Below are positions 16,374 to 42,245 of a DNA stretch of 64,000 nt, piece after piece (within the stretch, counting starts at the first letter, position 1; the number at the start of each line of letters is the position of its first letter). The DNA lies in contig JARFQY010000348.1 of the NCBI GenBank assembly GCA_029287535.1, positions 1-64,000 of the forward strand. The letters are read 5' to 3'. The translations under genes and the position numbers were made by a program. Source of the DNA: Filomicrobium sp. Lineage in GTDB: Bacteria > Pseudomonadota > Alphaproteobacteria > Rhizobiales > Hyphomicrobiaceae. Below the pieces are notes generated by a model. The model was not told the DNA's origin, made no database searches, and saw only the letters and a program-made list of their open reading frames with translations.

Positions 16374-18035
16374 TTATTCGGCTGCAGCAAGAGCAGGACG
16401 CAGTTCCGGAGCGGCTGCCACGCGAGGCTGTTCCTCGGCATCGACAGGTTCGTCTCCGCGCGCCGTGCGCCAGAGGTTGTAAGCCATCAACAGTGCGCCA
16501 ATGACGAACAGCGAACCGCCGCCGGCACGGATGATGTAGGGGATGTGCATAGCATCCACGGTCTCAATGAACGAGTACTTGAGGAAGCCGAGCTTGTCGT
16601 AGGCACGCCACATCAGACCCTGCAGGATTCCGGACACCCACATCGCGGTGATGTAGAGAAGGATCCCGATCGTTGCGATCCAGAAGTGCCATTCAACGAG
16701 ACGCATTGAGTACAGCCCGCGACGTTTCCACAGCCATGGGAACAGGCAGTACAAGGCACCGAACGAAATCATGCCAACCCAGCCCAATGCGCCGGAGTGA
16801 ACATGGCCGATGGTCCAGTCCGTGTAGTGGCTCAACGAGTTCACGGCCTTAATCGACATCAATGGACCTTCAAAGGTCGACATACCGTAGAAGGCGACCG
16901 AAACGACCATCATGCGGATGACAGGGTCGGTACGCAGCTTGTCCCATGCACCCGACAGCGTCATGAGGCCGTTGATCATGCCGCCCCAGGACGGCATCCA
17001 AAGCATGATCGAGAAGGTCATACCGAGCGTCTGCGCCCAATCAGGCAGAGCCGTATAATGAAGATGGTGAGGACCTGCCCAGATATACAGGAAGATCAGC
17101 GACCAGAAGTGCACGATCGACAAACGGTAGGAATACACCGGACGCTCGGCCCGTTTTGGAATGAAGTAATACATCATCCCAAGGAAGCCAGCCGTCAGGA
17201 AGAAGCCCACGGCGTTGTGACCATACCACCACTGGGTCATCGCATCCTGCACACCGGAGAAGATAACGTAGCTCTTCGGGCTGGTCAGCGAGACCGGCAG
17301 GGCCAGGTTGTTCACGATGTGCAGCATCGCGACGGTGAGAATGAAAGCAAGGTAGAACCAGTTCGCGACATAGATGTGCGGTTCTTTGCGCTTCAGCAGC
17401 GTCCCCCCAAAGACGATCAGGTAGACGACCCAGACAACAGTCAACCAGAGATCAGCGTACCATTCCGGTTCCGCGTATTCCTTGCTTTGCGTGATCCCGA
17501 GCACGTAGCCGGTACCGGCAATAACGATGAACAGGTTGTAGCCAAGTACGACGAACCAGGGCGACCAACGGCCAAACAAACGCGCCTTACAGGTTCGCTG
17601 CACGACGTAGAACGACGTCGCTAGCAGAGCGTTTCCACCGAATGCAAAAATCACGGCTGATGTGTGTAGCGGCCGCAGGCGTCCGAAACTGATCCAGGGA
17701 AGATCAAAGTTAAGGACCGGGTAGGCCATCTGCCAGGCGATAATCGCGCCGACTAGAAAGCCCGCGAGCCCCCAAAAAACAGAGGCGACGGCCGCAAACT
17801 TTATGGGGCCGTCATTGTAAAAGGGTTGTGGCTCGCTGCGGCCAGATAGCGAGGACAGAACCCAGATCGCGGAAAGAACCGCCGCGACACCCAAAACGGC
17901 GCCGTGGAAGCTCATTACGGGATCTTTTGAGAACAACGTCAGGTAGAAGCCGAGGAACGCCACGAAAGCTGCTCCGAGCACAGCAAGTGCGTCGGAGAGA
18001 GCGGACATCTCCTCGCCGTTTTTTGCTACAGCCAT
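16374..18035 (-). CDS. ccoN: cbb3-type cytochrome c oxidase catalytic subunit I CcoN/FixN
   Basis: The 553-residue protein has about twelve to fourteen membrane helices and the CcoN signature regions, including [31 protein letters not shown] and [15 protein letters not shown], which provide haem b and CuB histidines. It is the oxygen-reducing, proton-pumping subunit of the high-affinity oxidase used at low oxygen. A GGAGA stands about nine bases before the chosen ATG. The gene is divergent from a haemerythrin-like gene, and a perfect FNR box lies 119 bases upstream of its start codon. Confidence 0.97.
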
Positions 18036-18153
18036 CTGTTTTTGTCTCCGGTCAGAGGGAGGAATCTTTCAACGCAAGGGCAGGTTTAAATTGGCATTCT
18101 TGGTGCCCCCTATCCCCGTATAGCTTTCATGCTTTTCCGCCAACTTGTCAGCA

Positions 18154-39535: not shown

Positions 39536-39775
39536 TTGCCGGGCAGGGACTGCTAATGCCTTGTAAATCGCGTTCAAATGCACCATTTGAAAATCGTTTT
39601 GAGATGCATGGCTCGTGTCCCTTCTGTCACACTACAAACCATTGTGGCTCAAGTTCCACTCCACACGGGATGGCTTCGCGTGGAGCTTCACAGAGCTGAC
39701 ATGCATGTCTAGTATTCGGAACACGGTCTGGTGGCGCGGACCGATTCTTGCAAGAACCCAACAGGAGGCACGAAC

Positions 39776-40336
39776 GTGGATCGTTCTGCTGTAATGCTGG
39801 ACAATTCTCCGGCCCTGGTTCTAAACGCCGACTTCCGGCCCTTGAGTTATTATCCGCTGTCGCTCTGGAGTTGGCAGGAAGCGGTAAAAGCAGTCTTTCT
39901 TGATCGCGTAAACATAGTCTCTGAGTACGACCGCCACGTTTCAAGCCCAACATTCAAGATGCGGCTGCCGAGCGTGGTTTCACTCAAGACCTACGTCAAA
40001 CCGGCACTGTTTCCGGCATTCACGCGCTTTAATGTGTTTCTTCGCGACCGGTTTACCTGTCAATATTGCGGAGATCTGCAAGACCTGACGTTCGACCACG
40101 TCATTCCCCGCTCACGCGGTGGCTTGACGCGTTGGGACAACGTTGTGACCGCGTGTGCGCCTTGCAATCTCGCAAAAGGCGGCGACATGCCCGAAGTTGC
40201 CGGGATGTTGCCGAAGCAGGCGCCTTATCGTCCAACGGTTTTCGAACTGCATCGTAACGGACGCTTGTTCCCGCCCAACTACCTTCATGAGAGCTGGCTC
40301 GACTACCTGTATTGGGACACCGAGCTGGAGCCCTAA
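39776..40336 (+). CDS. HNH endonuclease family protein
   Basis: The 186-residue product opens with LVLNADFRPLSYYPLS, typical of the widespread chromosomal HNH proteins of bacteria, and carries the HNH motif at CQYCGD, FDHVIPRSRGG, WDNVVTAC and CNLAKG with two zinc CXXC pairs. The family is often chromosomal and of unknown role rather than mobile. AGGAGG seven bases before the GTG at 39776 decides the start. A strong terminator follows the stop. Confidence 0.92.
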   Translation: MDRSAVMLDNSPALVLNADFRPLSYYPLSLWSWQEAVKAVFLDRVNIVSEYDRHVSSPTFKMRLPSVVSLKTYVKPALFPAFTRFNVFLRDRFTCQYCGDLQDLTFDHVIPRSRGGLTRWDNVVTACAPCNLAKGGDMPEVAGMLPKQAPYRPTVFELHRNGRLFPPNYLHESWLDYLYWDTELEP

Positions 40337-40359
40337 AGGTTGGCGCGAGGTTCGTAGGC

Positions 40360-40389
40360 AAAAAGGGCGCCTCAAGGCGCCCTTTTTTT
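40360..40389. terminator. Bidirectional rho-independent terminator
   Basis: An 8-base stem (AGGGCGCC / GGCGCCCT) with loop TCAA is preceded by a run of A and followed by seven T, so it can end transcripts in both directions. It lies between the convergent HNH gene and the small gene at 40398. Confidence 0.93.
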
Positions 40390-40397
40390 GTCTCAAG

Positions 40398-40622
40398 CTA
40401 TGCGGCTCGCTTGTCTGATGGCGCGCACATTGCCTCGGCGATGATTTCAACCGCCTTGCTCCAATCGCCGCTCGCTTTATCCGCGTCGCGCGCCAGCCCG
40501 AAGGCCGCGAGCGCATCCGCTGGAGCACCACCATCGCGGAACACCCGCGCGCAAACCTGGCGCGCGTATCCAAGCGTTTGGTGCCATTGCATTGTATCGA
40601 CGTACTCTGGGGGCATCTGCAT
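40398..40622 (-). CDS. Small hypothetical protein
   Basis: The product has about 74 residues and starts M-Q-M-P-P-E-Y-V-D-T-M. The central part QTLGYARQVCARVFRDGGAPADALAAFGL looks like a folded helical domain conserved as a short protein, but I cannot name a family. A GGAG nine bases before the ATG supports the start; an ATG five codons upstream (40637) is possible. It ends at the bidirectional terminator, which supports it as a transcribed gene. Confidence 0.6.
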   Translation of the reverse strand: MQMPPEYVDTMQWHQTLGYARQVCARVFRDGGAPADALAAFGLARDADKASGDWSKAVEIIAEAMCAPSDKRAA

Positions 40623-41061
40623 TTTCCTGTGCTCCATAAACTTGGGCAGCCCGTTGAACGGCGGCAGGTGCGAGGAACAAGGTGTGCTGTAACGCGCAAC
40701 CGGGATACACAGCACTTCGATCGAGCAGTACTCTCTCGCGCTCGACGCACCTGCCATTTCCTGCAGACCCGGGCTATCGTGCTCTCCGGTGCCGCATCTG
40801 AAATTACGCAGTCGGGCTAAGGGCTTGACGCGGACTACAACCAACCGAAACGCGCTTACTTTTTGACGCTTACGTTACTCAGCACCAACTCAACGATGTC
40901 GCTGATCGGTTGCCATGTGGTCTCACTCGTGTTCACCTTACGCCTCTCAACTCAATTGAATTGCGGTCCACGACCGGCGCTCAATGGCGCCGCACCAGCC
41001 ACGCCGGTCGCGGTGACCTCGCTTCGCCAGTTCTCGCGGGGGGGGGAGAGCCGGCAAACGC

Positions 41062-41346
41062 TTACGACGCACGACACGCTACAGATACGACTGGGGTGTT
41101 GATTTGCTTACCGATACGCATGGACTTAATCCGGCGGGCAAACTTCCTCGACTCTTCAAACATCGCCGGAAGCGTGTTCTTGGGAGAGGACACCGATACA
41201 AACGCGTTACCAGTACACAAACGCCGCTTTAGGAAGTCAGACGCCGTACGACCCGAAGTCGGACCTCCAAGCCGCAACTCACTCAACTGCAACTCAGACG
41301 CTGGAACTACGCCACTATCCAGAACACTACGCATGGAAAACGCCAC
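41062..41346 (-). CDS. Possible small protein inside skewed island
   Basis: The 94-residue frame reads plausibly as a protein: DSGVVPASELQLSEL, then TASDFLKRRLCTGNAF, then NTLPAMFEESRKFARRIKSMRIG, with basic and helical character toward the end. Codon use is rich in T and G at third positions, unlike the GC-rich neighbours. No family is recognised and no good ribosome site precedes the ATG. It may be a decayed phage gene or a chance frame. Confidence 0.3.
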   Translation of the reverse strand: MAFSMRSVLDSGVVPASELQLSELRLGGPTSGRTASDFLKRRLCTGNAFVSVSSPKNTLPAMFEESRKFARRIKSMRIGKQINTPVVSVACRAS

Positions 41347-41430
41347 TCACGGTTACGACTCAAAATCACCACGACACAACAACGCGAACTGGGTAGAGCC
41401 AAAGTACGCGGCTCAAACGACTCAGCAGCT

Positions 41431-41449
41431 GCCGACACCGAGTGTCGGC
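41431..41449. repeat. Perfect hairpin in skewed island
   Basis: GCCGACAC and GTGTCGGC pair over 8 bases with the three-base loop CGA and no T tract on either strand. A second nested hairpin (CCGC...GGGG-ACAA-CCCC-GCGG) lies at 41554-41577. Confidence 0.6.
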
Positions 41450-41714
41450 GATGCCCCTGGAACGCGGGCGCACATACTTGAAACCGGCAAACAAACGCTA
41501 CTGGACATCTGGCGAAACAAACTCAACTCGCAACCATCGATCCCTTGTCTCGTCCGCTTGGGGGGACAACCCCGCGGCTGTCGTGAATTAAGCGTCCCAT
41601 TTGGGCAACAAGAAGACACGAAATAGACGCCTCCACGGCAATTACATTGACGAAAGATGAACGGGCCACACCGACCCGTTCGATCCGCATCTTACCTGGA
41701 TGAAATATGGGGTT

Positions 41715-42245
41715 TCAGAGGGTTTCGCGCTGCTCAACACACGCGAAAGCGGCCTTGAGCGTGCCGACAAATATGACGAAGGAAATCAATGCGTTCCAGC
41801 CGGCAAATGAGAGACCGAGGAACCAGAACTCGGGCTCGTCGCAGCGTGGAACTTTCGTCTTCTGTAAATCAGCCAGAAGCGAATCTGCCGAAGCGTTGAG
41901 GGCCTCTCCGCCGGAACAACTCTGTGGCCCGGGCCAGAATCCGTATTCAGCCCCTGCTTGATAGACGCCAAGGCCCGAATTCGCCAGGAAAGCCAAGGAC
42001 ACGACAAAAAACACCAAAGCCGCCATTTTCGCTTTTTCGGCGCTGAGCAGGATCAGCGAAACGAATAGCAAAGGCACGCCCGCATAGTAGGCATAACGCT
42101 GAACCAGGCACAAAGGGCAGGGTTCATACTGACCAACGTACTCAAATGCCAGGGCCGCCAGGATGACCGCGGCCGACAAGAACAGCATCCACCCGCCAAG
42201 CTGGTAAGCGTGAGATTTCACGGGGCTGACCTGTTCAGAACGCAT
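41715..42245 (-). CDS. dsbB: Disulfide bond formation protein DsbB
   Basis: The 176-residue protein has four membrane helices, the first periplasmic redox pair in PCPLCLVQRYAYY and the second pair formed by Cys in PQSCSG and PRCDEP. It reoxidises DsbA with quinone in the inner membrane, supporting disulfide formation in periplasmic proteins and cytochromes. It follows the DedA-type gene after 28 bases in the same direction, probably one unit. Confidence 0.92.
   Translation of the reverse strand: MRSEQVSPVKSHAYQLGGWMLFLSAAVILAALAFEYVGQYEPCPLCLVQRYAYYAGVPLLFVSLILLSAEKAKMAALVFFVVSLAFLANSGLGVYQAGAEYGFWPGPQSCSGGEALNASADSLLADLQKTKVPRCDEPEFWFLGLSFAGWNALISFVIFVGTLKAAFACVEQRETL

Follow-up and report, generated by a model that had tools for sequence, protein, structure and literature searches.

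A strand-skewed stretch of DNA between dsbB and a small gene that we call geneX covers most of a structured RNA gene that is new and conserved, a reading to which we assign a probability above 0.9. It lies in the window, the 64,000-nucleotide stretch of Filomicrobium sp. DNA analysed here, whose positions are used throughout, and the same unit sits between dsbB and geneX in Hyphomicrobiaceae (Alphaproteobacteria). Judged from the sequence, the RNA gene would be about 0.9 kb long and transcribed along the minus strand from about 41579 to 40663 (Table 1). An earlier note on this DNA had described 40850–41640 as an island of foreign character and offered two readings, a small ssDNA phage or a structured RNA; the second is the correct one. 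The feature spans about 41651 to 40663, past the limits given then, and it is neither an island nor foreign, being syntenic in relatives and kept in place between dsbB and geneX both within the genus and across the family.

Table 1. Features of the RNA unit and its neighbours, in the order in which the minus strand is read
Feature	Coordinates	Strand	Basis or remark
dsbB, upstream gene	41715..42245	-	Pfam DsbB, E 5.1e-28
Terminator-like hairpin ending dsbB	41659..41681	-	Scan: 1 found, shuffles average 1.6; weak alone
Conserved promoter-like block of the RNA gene	41572..41651	-	Present in 53/54 gaps
-10-like TTAATT	41586-41591	-	Inferred element
RNA body with G[AC]GT (GMGU) array	40856..41579	-	Holds most of the stretch flagged earlier
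ORF1, 94-aa frame overlapping Hb	41062..41346	-	Coding status doubtful
Conserved hairpins Ha and Hb, GCGU in Hb loop	41092..41181	-	Alignment; 9/10 pairs with two-sided changes
ORF2, 26-aa frame (..WQPISDIV..)	40856..40936	-	Plausible small protein; similar frame in relatives
Three-way-junction RNA, ~95 nt	40663..40755	-	Alignment; covariance-model match 40662-40758
geneX, 74 aa	40398..40622	-	Start at 40622
Inverted repeat with A run and T run	40360..40389	.	Sequence; self-match on opposite strand
HNH endonuclease gene, convergent	39731..40336	+	Pfam HNH, E 4.4e-13

The promoter-like block that follows dsbB leads, in most loci, into a conserved TTCGCGGAACAC-type sequence, and the RNA probably starts near 41579; the window's own block has no match to the sigma-70 consensus. 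At the other end, the inverted repeat is apparently a terminator shared by geneX and the convergent HNH gene. Both minus-strand frames that had been pointed out earlier, of 94 and 26 codons, are present, the shorter one starting with GTG, and the two hairpins described are likewise real, one being a 12-nt inverted repeat (40968–40979/41002–41013) and the other the hairpin that ends dsbB. The part of a listed 148-aa frame that precedes the geneX start is RNA element and not conserved protein.

The skew of the flagged stretch is caused largely by one word rather than by general composition. Plus-strand A+C peaks at 68.9% in a 180-nt window at 41210, bearing out the excess of about 66% claimed for a 180-base part; this is the top 180-nt value in the whole 64 kb (mean 52.9%, s.d. 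4.1%), and across all of 40850–41640 the figure is 57.5%. The word is G[AC]GT, which occurs at 40625–41714 38 times on the minus strand versus 4 times on the plus strand, while 1000 dinucleotide shuffles of that segment gave a mean of 20.7 and a maximum of 33, never 38. The densest 400-nt window at the locus holds 20 words, against at most 10 in the rest of the 64 kb. The repeated short words noticed earlier thus come down to one degenerate word, and no family of direct repeats reaches 12 nt. An exact search for tandem GMGTN in the genome itself returned 3 places versus 13 in a reversed control, none of them at this locus.

Relatives share both the arrangement and the skew. When 59 related genomes were searched with 40340–41720, 18 matched, those of the same genus in broken, collinear blocks, and wherever the flanks could be placed the block lay between dsbB and a minus-strand geneX, mostly with the HNH gene beyond. 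A scan yielded 67 geneX loci, mostly recorded as Filomicrobium, Hyphomicrobium or Hyphomicrobiaceae and otherwise under broader names, two being labelled Devosia equisanguinis. We found dsbB upstream of geneX in 53 of the 67; among the other 14, upstream sequence was long enough for assessment in 12. Over 54 gaps (the 53 loci with dsbB found upstream, plus the window), G[AC]GT occurs 2064 times in sense and 238 times in antisense, against a shuffled expectation of about 1054, with the skew present in 54/54; in 53 of these 54 loci the count is higher than in every one of 60 shuffles of the same locus. The longer word TTGCGT is still more one-sided (365 sense, 8 antisense), and the second letter of the word is C in 73% and A in 27%. 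The densest 400-nt window falls inside the gap in 53/53 loci and upstream of geneX in all 12 loci with enough sequence and no dsbB match, so that the array is present in 65 of 65 testable loci. The earlier note had counted a segment conserved and unskewed in relatives as evidence against its foreign reading; the segment is conserved, but the skew is conserved with it, which marks it as functional rather than foreign.

Within the array the words lie on a loose lattice. Inter-word distances peak near 5, 9–11, 15, 20 and 25 nt, and a 5-nt period stands out against jittered positions with z 7.5, or 4.7 at distances of 13–62 (two tandem-run loci excluded throughout), values that are upper bounds because the loci are related and the z values overstate independence. 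A weaker 3-nt period (z 3.6) indicates that coding may shape part of the array. In Hyphomicrobium sulfonivorans (L051) about 26 perfect GAGTT units follow one another at gap positions ~327–455, indicating that slippage feeds the array. Long perfect GAGTT tandem runs also occur inside the array in genomes G367, G363 and G017; such a run is a pentanucleotide microsatellite within an RNA gene, and its unit number may vary among strains. Predicted accessibility of GMGU words is barely raised, with a median of 0.039 versus 0.028 for words of the same composition.

The best-defined structure is an RNA of about 95 nt just before geneX, a three-way junction whose outer helix is joined by two arms, one variable and one bearing a large conserved loop. 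A profile recovered it at 63 of the 67 loci and a covariance model at another 3, which makes 66; the remaining locus (L087) is cut by a contig end. In an alignment of 56 copies, 97.8% of cells are standard pairs, 17 of the 19 pairs show two-sided changes, and slid versions of the alignment pair at 50% or less. Cells with two-sided changes number 221 versus 63.5 in shuffles, a count reached by 0 of 500 shuffles. The loop carries an invariant GCGU (56/56 rows), and the window's own copy folds better than its shuffles (z −4.0). A second covarying element, hairpin Hb, lies within the array: the Ha/Hb region was found in 46 of the 54 gaps, and among the 37 best-scoring sequences that were aligned, 9 of the 10 Hb pairs show two-sided changes and the loop displays GCGU in most. 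Folding of the full-length window RNA is not better than shuffles (z −0.83), nor is the whole 876-nt strand folded either way.

The junction occurs in 89 of 102 genomes of the family and in 24 of its 25 genera; with 71 of the 76 good-quality genomes positive, this is a strongly conserved RNA gene without an Rfam match. Each genome has it at one place, a second match in G015 being that place read on its other strand. geneX was found in 90 of the 102 family genomes. In a sample of the order, 14 of 199 genomes carry the junction, 7 of them outside the family, and all 7 have geneX and an upstream sense-strand array as a local maximum, which in one (L189) is weak at 7 words per 400 nt versus 5 outside. 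Across 397 genomes of the order geneX occurs in 39, and eight of the additional geneX loci (L210–L215, L221, L222) have no array and no junction match. In five of these array-less loci (L211–L215) dsbB is close upstream of geneX. The simplest reading is that the dsbB–geneX pair is older and that the array RNA was gained between the two genes; the alternative is loss. At L216 and L220 a junction-like sequence is seen by eye several hundred nucleotides before geneX, and the covariance model reported no junction in L216, L217 or L220.

The geneX protein has an AlphaFold model of four helices with a mean pLDDT of 88.9. Its predicted fold has a best E of 3.1 against the PDB, its profile has 0 matches among PDB sequences, and Pfam gave only scattered weak matches over 67 geneX proteins. 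Five viral contigs (L313–L317) match geneX over short or weak stretches, the best spanning 39 residues at 40%.

We compared the unit with known array-bearing and long RNAs. Searched against Rfam, 40380–41730 gave no match at E values up to 5, and no family exceeded its threshold for five further arrays described below; a known RNA family is therefore rejected for the unit and for the other arrays. CsrA (PF02599) is absent from the genome itself, which is 98% complete, with 3 of 14 control genomes positive, and TRAP (PF02081) is absent as well, with Bacillus subtilis positive as the control. GGA, counted over the gaps, occurs 718 times in sense and 1079 in antisense, versus 1009 in mononucleotide shuffles, so that the sense strand lies below expectation. 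A CsrA sponge is rejected because CsrA is absent and GGA is scarcer than expected, and a TRAP leader because the TRAP gene is absent. The unit nevertheless resembles CsrB/CsrC (RsmX/Y/Z) in repeating a short protein-binding word many times, in part within hairpin loops, and in that some genomes here also have more than one array RNA; it differs in its word, GMGU rather than GGA, and in being longer, with more words, and ending in a three-way junction beside geneX. Set beside TRAP-binding leaders, with their triplets spaced at 5 nt, the unit has a 5-nt lattice, but GAG is the minority form here, C exceeding A at the second position, the word has a following U, and spacing is looser. Like OLE, GOLLD and ROOL in the descriptions accessible to us, it is long and conserved; unlike them it has no Rfam match and is dominated by an array rather than compactly folded. 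We found no published description of this RNA gene among the article listings and opening parts of abstracts consulted in the open-licence PMC literature.

Arrays also occur at other loci. Three close TTGCGT words were matched in 42 of 60 family genomes, and a comparison of coordinates puts a match at the geneX locus in 36 of these 42. Among 20 further places examined, 5 contain at least 12 words per 300 nt; these five arrays, all shorter than the main one and none with a junction, represent two intergenic sites, each in two genomes, and one gene leader. One intergenic array of about 370 nt lies beside a YkuD gene (L253 and L261, minus strand, ~1420–1780 after reversing) and in both genomes ends in a hairpin resembling an intrinsic terminator. 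The other, likewise at one site shared by two genomes, neighbours an Extensin-like_C gene (L255 and L256). The fifth (L265, ~1450–1600) is in the leader of a gene that by likeness we take to encode a porin-like outer-membrane protein, a candidate mRNA target; the protein has no Pfam match at 0.001. Over 800 kb (22%) of genome G029, a stricter word set singled out only the geneX locus (11) and the YkuD locus (10), the next place scoring 6. In the same genome, a leader with a raised GMGT density of 12 per 300 nt (L305, ~17750–18050) precedes a gene presumed to be PopZ-like. Dense places antisense to a gene that we take to be hemW (L091, L097, L104) reflect codon usage and were rejected as arrays.

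Word copies on a lattice and in loops, recurring in several kinds of RNA, give the unit the appearance of a protein-titrating RNA, and with CsrA and TRAP absent and GGA scarce we propose that some other protein reads GMGU. By analogy with CsrB or TRAP leaders, we put it at roughly even odds that the array RNA acts by binding one protein in many copies and keeping hold of it. Transcription would start just past the dsbB terminator and proceed for about 0.9 kb along the minus strand through the GMGU array, the conserved hairpins, ORF2 and then the three-way junction, probably continuing into geneX. The transcript may act as a multivalent docking site, with copies of a putative RNA-binding partner seated on GMGU words, some in hairpin loops and most in linkers on the 5-nt lattice, and bound protein would be kept from mRNAs that bear the same words in their leaders, this sequestration supplying the presumed regulatory output. 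The partner could be the geneX product or an unlinked protein. Counting against this reading are the barely raised accessibility of the words, the shuffle-like folding of the full-length RNA, the weaker 3-nt period and the weak array at L189. A wider scheme, possible but tentative, with the odds somewhat against it, is a post-transcriptional Hyphomicrobiales network apart from CsrA and TRAP, in which a GMGU-reading protein is titrated by the large and the smaller array RNAs and controls leader-bearing mRNAs; the smaller RNAs would carry their own terminators, and outer-membrane-protein mRNAs would be examples of targets.

The main rival of this titrating role is a cis-acting one for geneX. The unit would then form the 5' part of the mRNA for geneX, its junction and array controlling translation or transcription, with binding by the geneX protein perhaps providing autoregulation. 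Position is in keeping with such a leader, for the junction precedes geneX at 66 of 67 loci and in the window stops 40 nt short of where geneX begins. Yet the eight geneX loci with no array or junction match indicate that geneX does not need them, the junction-like sequences seen by eye in L216 and L220 lie several hundred nucleotides away from it, and arrays elsewhere have no junction; we consider a cis-acting leader rather unlikely, though a serious contender. It is less probable still that the RNA is the scaffold of a ribonucleoprotein in the manner of OLE or ROOL, large and structured and bound by a set of proteins, with a job other than titration. Its length, several covarying elements and co-conserved small genes would suit a scaffold, but few positions are conserved along the degenerate array that makes up most of the RNA, and the whole-length fold is not above shuffles.

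The array might instead be the by-product of a coding sequence, ORF1 specifying a low-complexity protein rich in Ser, Arg and Val. The aligned frame is indeed open and longer than 115 aa in many loci, and the 3-nt period is weakly present. Against this, dN/dS is 0.35–1.18 for ORF1 versus 0.02–0.16 for dsbB. The synonymous rate is strongly lowered, falling below that of dsbB in 15 of 15 pairs computed (19 planned), with 0.315 versus 1.079 between the window and L040, and in 8 of 10 pairs similarity is higher across the gap than in dsbB (86.6% versus 79.7% for the window's pair), which together indicate constraint on nucleotides. The longest ORF1 frames average 130 aa versus 110 aa in shuffles, and the array is equally dense (53 words per kb) in the N-terminal part of ORF1 and in the ORF1–ORF2 interval, its words occupying all three phases. 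We therefore rejected ORF1 as the main point, on its dN/dS, lowered dS and near-shuffle length, and hold the coding explanation to be decidedly improbable. A strand motif acting in DNA, such as a recombination or segregation signal, is more doubtful again: strict strand bias would fit it, but the words are confined to a few places resembling transcription units (two clear outliers in 800 kb of one genome), and compensatory base changes point to RNA. As for the small ssDNA phage proposed earlier, or other foreign DNA, base skew is all that favours a remnant; the unit is conserved in 24 of the 25 family genera and syntenic in relatives, five proteins from its frames reached no better than E 0.15 against PHROGs, and its probability is close to nil. 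A known ordinary gene in decay, which the earlier note had also considered, is rejected, as there are no family matches (Pfam and NCBIfam gave none of note for the tested frames) and conservation of the unit mostly exceeds that of dsbB. What the unit encodes is probably an RNA with small genes in it. A frame of the W..[IL]S[DE]VV-like ORF2 type was found by regular expression in 39 of the 54 gaps, at least one of these matches being spurious (L058), and ORF2 looks like a real small protein.

Hundreds of nucleotides in which one short word recurs on a lattice, together with copies borne in loops, point to a putative protein partner. Should it be found, Alphaproteobacteria lacking CsrA would gain their own protein-titration system, with defined array RNAs and leaders, and the same work would assign functions to ORF2, geneX and the RNA itself, all now called hypothetical.

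Two observations concern the edges of the unit. Just after dsbB, near the start of the RNA gene, a DnaA-box-like TTATCCACA was seen by eye in several species (L043, L050, L051, L052). The product of the convergent HNH gene is well conserved among relatives and matches part of the NCBIfam IscB model at E 2.8e-12, far below the model's cut-off.
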